Positions 11,691 to 61,567 of a DNA stretch of 64,000 nt are shown piece after piece; position 1 is the first letter of the stretch; the number at the start of each line of letters is the position of its first letter. The stretch lies in assembly GCA_963931925.1 (NCBI GenBank), contig OZ007567.1:82221186-82285185 (forward strand), given 5' to 3'. Under the pieces are notes generated by a model. The model searched no databases. It was given only the letters and a program-made list of their open reading frames with translations, and had not been told where the DNA came from. This stretch comes from Onchidella celtica (Eukaryota > Mollusca > Gastropoda > Systellommatophora > Onchidiidae). The position numbers and the translations under genes are program-made.

Positions 11691-12085
11691 TAGCTCTAAT
11701 TGTTCTTACGTAGAGTGGCTCTAATTGTTCTTACGTAGAGTGGCTCTAATTGTTCTTACGTAGAGTGGCTCTAATTGTTCTTACGTAGAGTGGCTCTAAT
11801 TGTTCTTACGTAGAGTGGCTCTAATTGTTCTTACGTAGAGTGGCTCTAATTGTTCTTACGTAGAGTGGCTCTAATTGTTCTTACGTAGAGTGGCTCTAAT
11901 TGTTCTTACCGAGAGTGGCTCTAATTGTTCTTACCGAGAGTGGCTCTAATTGTTCTTGCGTAGAGTGGCTCTAATTGTTCTTACGTAGAGTGGCTCTAAT
12001 TGTTCTTACGTAGAGTGGCTCTAATTGTTCTTACGTAGAGTGGCTCTAATTGTTCTTACCGAGAGTGGCTCTAATTGTTCTTACC
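11691..12085 (+). repeat. 25-bp minisatellite, about 16 copies
   Basis: Head-to-tail copies of a 25-bp unit containing GTGGCTCTAATTGTTCTTAC, ending mostly CGTAGA. A minority end CCGAGA: two adjacent copies near 11910-11940 and one near 12060. One copy near 11957 reads TTGCGTAGA. Otherwise the units are nearly identical, so the array is young or homogenised. The variants are clustered, as expected from unequal exchange or block duplication. Confidence 0.95.
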
Positions 12086-46909: not shown

Positions 46910-47849
46910 TGTAAGCTTGCAATAAGGCTTGGTATCACTTTGGGGGCGGGGGTGTAAATCTATTATTTATTCATTTTTGGTGCTAAAATAGGGCTTTGCA
47001 AACTAGTTTTGCATGTCACACTTCACCTACAGAATACAAGGCTGAGGTCTAGACTTAATGCAATTTGATTGCGTGTCCCCGGATAACCTCCTCTACTACA
47101 AACAACCTGGAACAACAGTGAGAAACGTGCCCAGTGAGCACACTGTCCAAAAAGGATTTATTACCGGTCAGACTATTGGAAGTGTTCGGTAAGTCAATTG
47201 GTGTGGGAGTGCCGGTGTTCCTGCGTGAAACAACCGGTGGAAATAGCTCTGGACTGATTTATAACAGTGGCATGACGGGCTTCGGCAGGACGTTGCATAG
47301 GTCATCAGCGGTGTTTTATCTACGCTTACGCAATTAATGTCTTAACAATAGCCGTCCTTTTCAAACAGAAATCGCACCCCGCGAGAAAATGGCGTCAGAA
47401 ACTACAATTTCAGGTGTTCTTACATTACGAAATCAAATCTAAAACAGACAGACAAACAAACAAAATTTACGTGCTGACAATCTAAAAATCAATTCACAAT
47501 AACAAATTATAGCCGGCAGAATCACCCACGCATGCGGCTCAAATTAATCTGCATCAGGAAGGCGTAGATCTACACCTACAGGAGCATTTTAATTCTCAAT
47601 TGATCAGAGTCTCGCTCTCGCTCTCTCTCTCTCTAATTTCATATGTTCGTACTTTACGAAATGAAATTTAAAACCATCAAAACATTTAACGTGAGACAAT
47701 CTAGAAATCTATTCACAATAACCAAATCTAGTCGTCAATAGACCCATGCAGGCGACCCAATTTCATCTCTATTCAAAAGGTGTACACCCACAAGAGCAAT
47801 TTAACTCTCTCTCTCGCTCTCTCTCTCTCTTTCATTTCAGGTGTTCTTA

Positions 47850-47894
47850 GGGTGACGTCGGACTAGTCACACATCACACATAACTCATCACACA
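47850..47894 (+). repeat. Left terminal inverted repeat of the Harbinger element
   Basis: 45 bp. It matches the right end over its first 32 bp without change; the right end then has 7 extra bases (one more CACACAT unit) before matching resumes to the end of the repeat. Confidence 0.92.
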
Positions 47895-48028
47895 GCACAC
47901 AGGGGGTGTCTGATTGGTCATACACACACATCACACACATCACACACGTGCATACATTCTACGCTTTTGCAGCTCAGAACAAGTCTGGTTTGAATGTTGT
48001 GCATGTGTTCTATCTTTCCTCTCGCAAA

Positions 48029-50189
48029 ATGATGTTTTTATTAATCGATCCCCTGATCATTGATCCTGTGATTCTGCATGCTTCGCATCAAAGAAAAAGA
48101 ATGTGGTGTAGACTTATATACAGTGCCCGCCGGACTGAGAGTGAATATACAACTCTGTTCCCTAAGCTATTACATGACCCCGAGAAATTCCAGAATTATG
48201 CTCGGATGTCTCAGCCAAGCTTCCATGAGCTGCATGATCTCATAAAGGACTACATTCAACCAGGATTCACAAACTTCAGAGACTCAATTTCAACTGAGGA
48301 ACGTTTATTAATGACTCTCAGGTAAGAAAAAAAAAGCTCAAACAAATGAAATAATATTACTTTATTGTGTAACAAAAAAGAACATGTCAAATTAAAGAAA
48401 AACAAAAAACAAATGCTAAATACACGAAAGAGATTCAAAACCGTTTACTAATGTATTATACATGCATTTTTGCAGATGCCCGAAGGATGGACCACTCTTC
48501 GCAATTACGCAAACAATCATCGTGATCGCCTGAAGATGCCGTCTGGAAGCGCTGCTTCATCAACTACGTCTGGAGGAAAAAGGAAAAAGTCAGAGTGGCA
48601 ATATGCTGCGGAAAGCAGTTCTCCTGCCTCATTGGGACACTCGAGAGATGGAGTCCAATATCGTAAGTCCCTCGGTGGCAGAAAAGGACCTGCTTCTTCG
48701 GGCAAATAGTGACATTTAATGGCAGCTATTGAAATGTTCTGGGATTGCTGAAATACTGTAAATGAACAACCACAAACACCAAGCACAAGCATGTCTGCTT
48801 CTTGGGTGCAGAAGACATGCTTGTGCTTGGTGTTTGTGGTTGTTCATTTACAGTATTCTCAGCAATCCCAGAACATTCAATAGCTGCCATTAAAATGTCA
48901 CTATTTGCCGAAGAAGCAGGTCCTTTTCTGCCACCAGAGGACTTACGCATATTGGACTCCATCTCTCGATGTTGTCCCAAATGAGGCAGGAGGAACTGCA
49001 TTTCCGCAGCATATTGCCACTCTGACTTTTTCCTTTTTCCTCCAGACGTAGTTGATGAAGCAGCGCTTCCAGACGGCATCTTCAGGCGATCACGATGATT
49101 GTTTGCGTAATTGCGAAGAGTGGTCCATTCCTTCCGGGCATCTGCAAAAAAATGCATGTATAATACATTAGTAAACGGTTTTGAATCTCTTTCAGGTTGC
49201 GTATTTGAGCATTTGTTTTTTGTTTTTGTTTTTTTCATTTCAGACACCTGGCGTCTGGGACAAGTTTTCAACACATTGGCTACAACTACCGAGTGTCCCA
49301 TAACCACACTGGGTTCATCGTTGAGGAAACCTGCAGAGCAATCTGGGAAAGACTAAAACCATTATGCCTGCCAATTCCAGATCGGGACACTTGGGAGCGA
49401 ATTGCTGATGACTACTACCGGCTTTGGAATTTTCCAAACTGTGTCGGTTCTATCGACGGGACACACCAGGAGATTCAATGCCCTAAACATGCGGGGTCAT
49501 TGTACTTCAATTATAAAGATTATCATTCTCTTGTCTTTCAAGCGGTGGCAGATGCCAACTACAACTTTGTTGTGCTCGATATTGGTGATTACGGGCGTAA
49601 CAGTGATGGCTCTGTTTTAAGAGAATCTGCTTTTGGTCAGGATTTCGAGAACAACCGTTTGGATCTACCACCACCAAAACCACTTCCAAATACGGACCAA
49701 GAGCTTCCCTTCGTATTTTTGGCTGATGAAGCTTACCCGCTGCGTGAAAATCTTCTCACTCCCTACGCACGGCGGTCACTGTCCAATCCAAGTCGAATTT
49801 TTGCGAAAAAAAAATTTGAAGTACTGCAGCGACCAATTCGCTGTTCAGTTGAGCGGGCAACTATCATTATACAAGCTTCATATGCCCTACACAATTTTGT
49901 TAGACAACGTGAAGGTTCACCACTGCAAGCAAACACAGAAAATGCTGTCAACAATAACATCACCAGTCTTGGGCCTATTGTCCACAGTGGAAGGCACTCT
50001 CTTCGGGCTAAAGAAGTTCGTGACGGGTTCCGAAACTACTTCGTGTCTAGTGAAGGCAGTGTCCCTTGGGTTACAGCAAAGTACGCTGTTCAAACAGATC
50101 AAGGACTTTTATTTAGTTGCTTTTTTTTAATATTCACATTAAAAGCTTTCTTGTATTTTCTTTTTCAACCATCAAGCATCAATGTTTGA
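48029..50189 (+). CDS. Harbinger transposase, two exons, DDE_Tnp_4 type
   Basis: Exon 1 runs 48029-48321 and exon 2 runs 49244-50189, joined through a GTAAG donor and a TTTTTTTCATTTCAG acceptor to give about 412 residues, normal for the family. The join restores the conserved string TLR-HLASG. Exon 1 has the family N terminus (PEKFQNYARMSQPSFHELHD, then ISTEERL). Exon 2 carries the nuclease: GSIDGTH with the first catalytic Asp (residue about 169 of the joined protein), DIGDYGRNSDG, and FLADEAYPL with the second Asp. The step SNPSRIF to AKKKFEVLQRPI skips about 18 residues that relatives have there (Asn-Tyr-Arg-Leu-Ser-Arg and the Val-Glu-Asn-Ala-Phe-Gly helix). The third acidic residue is therefore missing, in frame. 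The true stop may have lain nearer VPW; the last 30 residues are low complexity. The ATG at 48029 is chosen because the frame further upstream runs into the terminal repeat without an ATG. The protein would cut and join transposon ends in the nucleus if whole. Confidence 0.88.
48397..49235. repeat. Inverted duplication of the MADF exon inside the transposase intron
   Basis: The left arm (about 48397-48796) and right arm (48813 to about 49235) are reverse complements separated by 16 nt. Each carries the MADF second exon with its splice acceptor: sense on the plus strand in the left arm, on the minus strand in the right. The right copy keeps an open frame. The left is broken by many single-base insertions and deletions (I count about a dozen differences, most of them indels) and is a pseudo-copy. 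The arms span nearly the whole transposase intron. Confidence 0.88.
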
Positions 50190-50397
50190 TTTGATTTGAT
50201 TAAACAGATCGAATTAAAAACTCACCGAAATCTGGAATGCCAATTTCATTGTTGATTTCAGTCCACGTTTTGTCCTTTAAAACTCTGTTTTTGTAGTCAA
50301 CATGTCCAGGATCGTATAAGGCTGGATGTTGCCTAACTATGCCAATGAGGATGACTTTAATGTCCTCTTGACTCGAAGTGCTGCTTTGGTCAGACAT
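48726..50397 (-). CDS. Harbinger MADF-domain DNA-binding protein, two exons
   Basis: Second protein of Harbinger elements, thought to bind the ends and bring the transposase into the nucleus. Exon 1 is 50397-50226 and exon 2 is 49141-48726, joined with a GTGAGT donor and a TTTTTTTGCAG acceptor in matching phase (1 + 2) to give 195 residues. The join rebuilds a MADF domain: VRQHPALYDPGHVDYKN (residues about 21-37), KTWTEINNEIGIPDF, then DARKEWTTLRNYANNHRDRL. A Ser/Gly/Lys-rich stretch and KKSEWQYAAEMQFLLPHLGQ follow. The intron (50225-49142) contains the whole second transposase exon on the other strand, and MADF exon 2 lies inside the transposase intron. The last ~25 residues read across the centre of the inverted duplication, so the native C terminus was probably replaced. 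AATAAA on the minus strand at about 48361-48366 could serve as its poly(A) signal. Confidence 0.85.
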
Positions 50398-50535
50398 GGT
50401 CCTTCTGCGAAGCCAAATGTGATCACACAACAACAAAAAAATGAACATGCTCATTCATGTGTGTGATGAGTTATGTGTGATGTGTGATGTGTGATCAGTC
50501 CGACTCGCACATGTCGTTACCGTGTGTTTATTTCG

Positions 50536-50587
50536 TGTGTGATGAGTTATGTGTGATGTGTGATGTGTGACTAGTCCGACGTCACCC
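50536..50587 (-). repeat. Right terminal inverted repeat of the Harbinger element
   Basis: 52 bp, reverse complement of the left end apart from the extra CACACAT unit. A second, slightly diverged copy of this end lies just inside at 50457-50510 (reads GAGTCGGACTGATCACACAT on the minus strand), so the right end is a tandem terminus. Confidence 0.9.
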
Positions 50588-50692
50588 TTACATTACGAAA
50601 TCAACCATCTCAAATTCATCTCTATCAAAAAGGCGTACACCTACAAGGGCAATTACTTTTCAGTTTCTCTTTCTCCCTCTCTCTCTCTTGCA

Positions 50693-60930: not shown

Positions 60931-61567
60931 TGGGGGTGTGGGGGAGGGGCGTCGGTGTATGGGGTGTGGGTGTGGGGGAGGGGCGTCGGTGTATGGGGTG
61001 GGGGTGTGGGGGAGGGGCGTCGGTGTATGGGGTGTGGGTGTGGGGGAGGGGCGTCGGTGTATGGGGTGTGGGTGTGGGGGAGGGGCGTCGGTGTATGGGG
61101 TGTGGGGGAGGGGCGTCGGTGTATGGGGTGGGGGTGTGGGGGAGGGGCGTCGGTGTATGGGGTGTGGGGGAGGGGCGTCGGTGTATGGGGTGGGGGTGTG
61201 GGGGAGGGGCGTCGGTGTATGGGGTGGGGGTGTGGGGGAGGGTCGTCGGTGTATGGGGTGGGGGGTGGGGGAGGGGCGTCGGTGTATGGGGTGGGGGTGT
61301 GGGAGAGGGGCGTCGGTGTATGGGGTGGGGGGGTGGGGGGGTCGTCGGTGTATGGGGTGGGGGTGGGGGGGAGGGGCGTCGGTGTATGGGGTGGGGGTGT
61401 GGGGGAGGGTCGTCGGTGTATGGGGTGGGGGGGGGGCGTCGGTGTATGGGGTGGGGGTGTGGGGGAGGGGCGTCGGTGTATGGGGTGGGGGTATGGGGGA
61501 GGGGCGTCGGTGTATGGGGTGGGGGTGGGGGGGGGGCGTCGGTGTATGGGGTGGGGGGTGGGGGGGG
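60931..61567 (+). repeat. G-rich minisatellite, 19 units of about 28-34 bp
   Basis: Nineteen occurrences of GTCGGTGTATGGGG, each followed by GTG and long G tracts and then AGGGGC. Length classes differ mainly by loss or gain of a 6-bp GTGGGT block. The plus strand carries four or more G tracts per unit, the pattern for G-quadruplexes. The unit contains no stop in any plus frame or in two minus frames, so five overlapping long frames exist (up to 276 codons). The minus-strand frames would encode Pro/His/Thr repeats such as PIHRRPSPTP. None begins with an ATG in unique sequence, and I do not call a gene. Confidence 0.93.

Follow-up and report, generated by a model that had tools for sequence, protein, structure and literature searches.

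Introduction

Two-gene PIF/Harbinger elements have in common a DDE_Tnp_4 transposase, a MADF protein, terminal inverted repeats (TIRs) and a TTA or TAA target-site duplication, according to the available text of PMC4482050. Both the transposase and the MADF/Myb-like protein are reported to be needed for transposition of the rice and zebrafish elements (PMC9710019, in the available excerpts), and in fish Harbingers the transposase and its Myb-like partner are reported to be kept together with rare exchange between sublineages, a pairing which the accessible part of PMC9179366 accounts for by protein co-evolution. The insect genes APLG and APM, as presented in the excerpts of PMC9710019, are co-domesticated and likewise comprise a transposase gene and a MADF gene from one PIF insertion, while the cockroach transposase-derived gene BPLG2 has two exons with an intron of approx. 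900–1500 bp in all species but one. Nested or embedded antiparallel genes, in which exons likewise lie inside the intron of another gene on the opposite strand, are described from animals in the portion of PMC2330155 available.

The element reported here differs from each of these. Published two-gene elements are given as two ORFs with no mention of reciprocal nesting in the text available, and the insect APLG and APM genes are adjacent, with 97 and 179 bp between them (PMC9710019, excerpts), whereas here the exons of the two genes are interlocked. In contrast to the genes of PMC2330155, as far as its available text goes, the nesting is reciprocal and both genes belong to one mobile element. 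Such an interlock is not described in the available text of five papers on two-gene Harbingers or overlapping genes (PMC4482050, PMC9179366, PMC9710019, PMC2330155, PMC11893794), and it may stand as an unremarked drawing in Kapitonov and Jurka 2004, Sinzelle 2008 or Repbase.

Results

Within the window, by which we mean the whole stretch of 64,000 nucleotides of Onchidella celtica DNA that was analysed, a PIF/Harbinger element of 2.74 kb was delimited, with ends at 47850 and 50587, a TTA target-site duplication and TIRs of approx. 50 bp. The parts of the element are as follows.

47847–47849: target-site duplication TTA, left; the repeat at about 47411–47440 carries an image of the empty site
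47850–47901, plus strand: left TIR
48029–48321, plus strand: transposase exon 1, ending in phase 2 with a GTAAG donor
48322–49243, plus strand: transposase intron, with MADF exon 2 within it on the opposite strand
48361–48366, minus strand: poly(A)-like hexamer for the MADF transcript, in the transposase intron; possibly a chance occurrence
48394–48803, plus strand: palindrome arm 1, in which part of MADF exon 2 is repeated in inverted form with its frame broken; probably unpolished sequence or an artefact
48806–49141, minus strand: MADF exon 2, coding for the domain's second half; frame continues into the palindrome to about 48726
49244–50091, plus strand: transposase exon 2 (DDE_Tnp_4); frame open to 50188
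50138–50143, plus strand: poly(A)-like hexamer for the transposase transcript, in the MADF intron; possibly a chance occurrence
50226–50397, minus strand: MADF exon 1, carrying the start codon and the domain's first half, with a GTGAG donor in phase 1
50459–50587, minus strand: right subterminal repeat (46-nt unit, two copies) and right TIR
50588–50590: target-site duplication TTA, right

The exon order is thus transposase-1 (plus), MADF-2 (minus), transposase-2 (plus), MADF-1 (minus), with no overlap between coding exons. A sequence-only reading of this DNA had given each gene a single intron with canonical splice sites and matching phases and had placed the second exon of each gene within the intron of the other; the joins, phases and strands were all confirmed. 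The transposase join (48029–48321 to 49244 onward) is in phase 2 with GTAAG...CAG borders, and the MADF join on the minus strand (50397–50226 to 49141 downward) is in phase 1 with GTGAG...CAG borders. The MADF join restores the full domain (Pfam positions 1–84 of 84, E 2.8e-18), which neither piece completes alone (E 2.3e-9 and 0.0019 when unspliced). The same reading had assigned both genes to one Harbinger, and the traits of that superfamily are present: a DDE_Tnp_4 transposase, a MADF (Myb/SANT) second gene, TIRs whose arms (47849–47901 and 50536–50588) are 91% complementary over 53 nt, and a 3-bp TWA duplication, here TTA. An HTH_Tnp_4 match in the transposase was below the Pfam cut-off, both in the window (E 7.8e-4) and in sister copy L008 (E 2.8e-4). 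A diverged direct-repeat block surrounds the insertion (47400–47850 and 50587–50690), and its neighbouring unit at about 47411–47440 runs continuously across the site that matches the insertion and so shows the target site unbroken.

A DNA search of the host's own genome (1.14 Gb) returned seven rows, which represent the window itself and five other copies, one of them in two rows. The order of alternating plus- and minus-strand exons is identical in all five sister copies (L008–L012); copies with the genes side by side, in which case the window copy would be the rearranged one, had been named beforehand as evidence that would count against the nesting, and the sisters instead agree with it. 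Transposase exon 2 is 94% identical to the window in L008 and L009 and 81–83% identical in L010–L012. Target-site duplications read by eye were TTA in L008 and L011 and TAA in L012; no right end was readable in L009 and neither end in L010, also by eye. MADF exon 1 is only partly kept in L009, and L012 has an insertion within transposase exon 1. The MADF tail of L008–L012 terminates in a Gln/Gly-rich tandem repeat of approx. nine residues, and the number of repeats varies among copies.

The window copy is defective and does not have both genes intact, while the frames of both genes are open in another copy of the host genome. Its transposase covers positions 1–103 of 158 of the DDE_Tnp_4 profile, compared with 1–158 of 158 for L008, because a stretch of approx. 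17 residues that is present in the sister copies is absent; this stretch includes the residue which we take to be the third catalytic acid of the family. The window transposase frame also reads beyond the point at which its relatives stop. A palindrome lies in the transposase intron (arms 48394–48803 and 48806–49231, approx. 410 bp each) and therefore mirrors MADF exon 2 on the plus strand, in a frame-broken second image. None of the five sister copies has this palindrome; in place of arm 1 they carry unique sequence coding for the MADF C-terminus, a tail with a BESS motif in L008, which the palindrome replaces in the window copy, where the MADF frame terminates in palindrome sequence. Aligned with arm 2 over 400 bases, arm 1 shows one substitution and 18 gap openings, and aligned with sister L009 two substitutions and 18 gap openings, whereas arm 2 and the flanking segments showed at most two gap openings per segment against L008 and L009, a comparison that excluded the missing transposase stretch and in which the L009 alignment of the last segment, just 16 bases long, is uninformative. 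As indels far exceed substitutions in arm 1, an origin as unpolished long-read sequence is suggested, and the arm is likely to be that or an assembly artefact.

Comparison of the copies pointed to purifying selection on both genes between the two subfamilies, with dN/dS of 0.230–0.282 for the transposase and 0.184–0.288 for MADF (nine comparisons each). Between L008 and L010, changes at the first, second and third codon positions numbered 28, 17 and 64 in transposase exon 2 and 30, 24 and 65 in MADF exon 2, so that each gene has its third-position excess in its own reading frame. Within subfamilies, where there are few changes, dN/dS ranged from 0.38 to 3.8 for the transposase and from 0.88 to 1.3 for MADF, with two values undefined, a pattern which is as expected for copies following insertion.

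To place the window element among its relatives, a transposase search of the host genome was used in which 150 of 990 candidates were scored. We took 45 loci of other families, 24 by score (L029–L052) and 21 by hand, the latter mostly for diversity and, for L073 and L074, for long open frames; together with the five sister copies and not counting the window, this gave a set of 50. All four parts were found in the interlocked order in 31 of the 50. Five loci (L038, L044, L058, L066, L067) have both transposase exons with MADF exon 2 between them, and no MADF exon 1 was found there. In ten others (L030, L035, L036, L049, L052, L060, L061, L063, L068, L074) an antisense MADF exon 2 immediately precedes transposase exon 2. 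As no transposase exon 1 was found in these ten, nesting there is only likely; L049 likewise had no detectable MADF exon 1. In two loci (L064, L069) the nested exon is the C-terminal one of MADF, and the core of the gene follows downstream. None of the 50 contradicted the interlock (L050 and L070 were not classed), and since the retrieved stretches are short, the parts not found may sit outside them. The same order, whole or partial, was thus present in 43 of the 45 loci of other families, and the nesting reaches further than the sequence-only reading had guessed.

These loci are diverse. Forty-eight of the 50 fell into eleven families at 60% amino-acid single linkage, one family holding 28 loci, and mean transposase identity among 20 non-redundant loci was approx. 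50%; a transposase tree of these 20 left 6 of 17 inner branches open. Splice sites were scored by eye, and as many loci are near-identical copies the number of distinct contexts is given with each count: transposase donors were GT in 36 of 36 scored loci (16 contexts) and transposase acceptors were conserved in 43 of 44 (25 contexts; exception L054), while 34 of 36 MADF donors were a GT where expected (21 contexts; those of L053 and L056 were displaced) and MADF acceptors were conserved in 40 of 41 (22 contexts; exception L047).

In L064 and L069 MADF is partitioned differently: the C-terminal exon alone is nested, the core exon being situated downstream from transposase exon 2. A reading of these two loci as side-by-side genes was rejected, the MADF C-terminal exon being inside their transposase intron. 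A profile built from L064 and L069 matched frames within transposase introns at two other loci, namely MADF exon 2 of L067 (E 2.8e-6) and of L071 (E 5.5e-4); a Pfam search with the L069 C-terminal exon frame gave no match.

A query spanning the intron site was also run against the host genome, with 150 of 1230 candidates scored and counted by eye. In 18 of the 150 scored rows the transposase was contiguous across the intron site, 15 of them stop-free; one further row, reading through two stops, was left out of the 18. Nearly all other scored rows begin within approx. 15 residues of the intron site. Two of the contiguous loci, L075 and L076, have one open frame spanning the site, and no convincing MADF match was found in approx. 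1.3 kb upstream and 1–1.7 kb downstream of them (a 10-residue MADF match in L076, E 0.049, was not counted). A long open frame also runs on the minus strand of L076 (2458–3999), antisense to the end of the contiguous transposase and beyond. With contiguous transposases in the same genome, the interlock belongs to an intron-bearing lineage, of which distantly related families share it.

Outside the host, a search of viral contigs found no relative and a search of genome contigs found one, L072 (JAHZIU010000197.1), whose transposase is contiguous across the intron site. No MADF profile match below E 0.05 was obtained for L072, on a contig that ends within the transposase and leaves the downstream side unseen. 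This Harbinger-like transposase sits on a contig filed in a Betaproteobacteria bin, although the contig is probably of eukaryotic origin.

Discussion

The exon order, the splice sites, the reading frames, the selection between subfamilies and the sharing of the order by divergent families are demonstrated here at the level of sequence comparison. We consider it probable that the window holds a defective copy of a two-gene PIF/Harbinger lineage whose convergent transposase and MADF-BESS genes have interdigitated exons that are kept as a lock. Transcription of the two genes would start from promoters near opposite ends of the element, and each primary transcript would splice over the internal exon of the partner and end in or near the partner's intron, the outcome being two mRNAs with non-overlapping coding exons from one compact element. 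Judged from this anatomy the interlock would be retained, being almost irreversible, and would function as a lock: a break, truncation or crossover by which one gene is separated or swapped would in most cases disrupt the other too, and both proteins would therefore travel and co-evolve as a unit.

Such a physical interlock would offer a second, testable cause for the kept pairing of transposase and Myb-like protein, beside protein co-evolution. Distances for the transposase and MADF exon 2 were congruent over 20 loci (Mantel r 0.688, reached in 0 of 9999 permutations), although the nearest relative was identical for both proteins in only 10 of the 20. This congruence could stem from protein co-evolution alone, as proposed for fish in the available text of PMC9179366, and the side-by-side transposase/MADF pairs of insects (PMC9710019, excerpts) mean that a lock is not required in general. 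The wider proposal, that the interlock is an evolved device, old and widespread in animal Harbingers, which welds the transposase to its obligate partner and explains their rarely broken co-inheritance, is in our opinion doubtful. The element offers a natural case in which convergent genes, each intronic to the other, are under selection. It also calls for caution in annotation, where both genes can be overlooked or split if mobile elements are treated on a single strand or by ORFs.

The strongest competing explanation is that the genes interdigitated once, irreversibly and neutrally, and that the arrangement has no present benefit. The order is common to the sampled intron-bearing families, as descent predicts, and MADF exon 2 is closely spaced from transposase exon 2 (median approx. 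121 bp, 30 loci); against this, intron lengths and the partition of the MADF exons differ among families, so the structure is not rigid. A frozen accident of this kind accounts for the same data nearly as well as the lock, and the data do not separate them; we regard it as a serious possibility, if somewhat less than an even one.

Antisense coupling, in which convergent transcription would make the two genes limit one another and hold both proteins balanced and low, seems unlikely. The sequence-only reading had expected sense and antisense overlap across nearly the whole coding region; this stands for the primary transcripts, which would overlap by nearly 2 kb, but not for the coding exons, which are free of mutual overlap. 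Poly(A)-like hexamers also occur in the partner's intron in six of six copies, window included, though AT-rich DNA commonly contains them, and in L010–L012 the plus-strand hexamer abuts MADF exon 1 beside the MADF donor, so that the end of the transposase RNA could fall within MADF exon 1. Taken together, the non-overlapping coding exons and the hexamers argue mildly against long mature antisense duplexes, and the structural lock is favoured over antisense regulation.

That a local rearrangement or assembly error produced the nesting in the window copy is extremely improbable: the copy does carry a palindrome with indels like those of long reads, but a rearrangement private to it is ruled out by the five palindrome-free sisters of the same order, and 43 of 45 other-family loci have that order in whole or in part. 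We give hardly any credence to the minus-strand MADF pieces being unrelated insertions or decayed pseudo-exons, for although several single copies have stops or gaps, the joined exons form a complete MADF domain, with a BESS motif in L008, and show purifying selection between subfamilies and matching positions across families.

Other features of the window

Elsewhere in the window we observed a 25-bp tandem array of 15.7 copies at 11693–12084 and a G-rich 34-bp minisatellite of 19.4 copies at 60931–61564.
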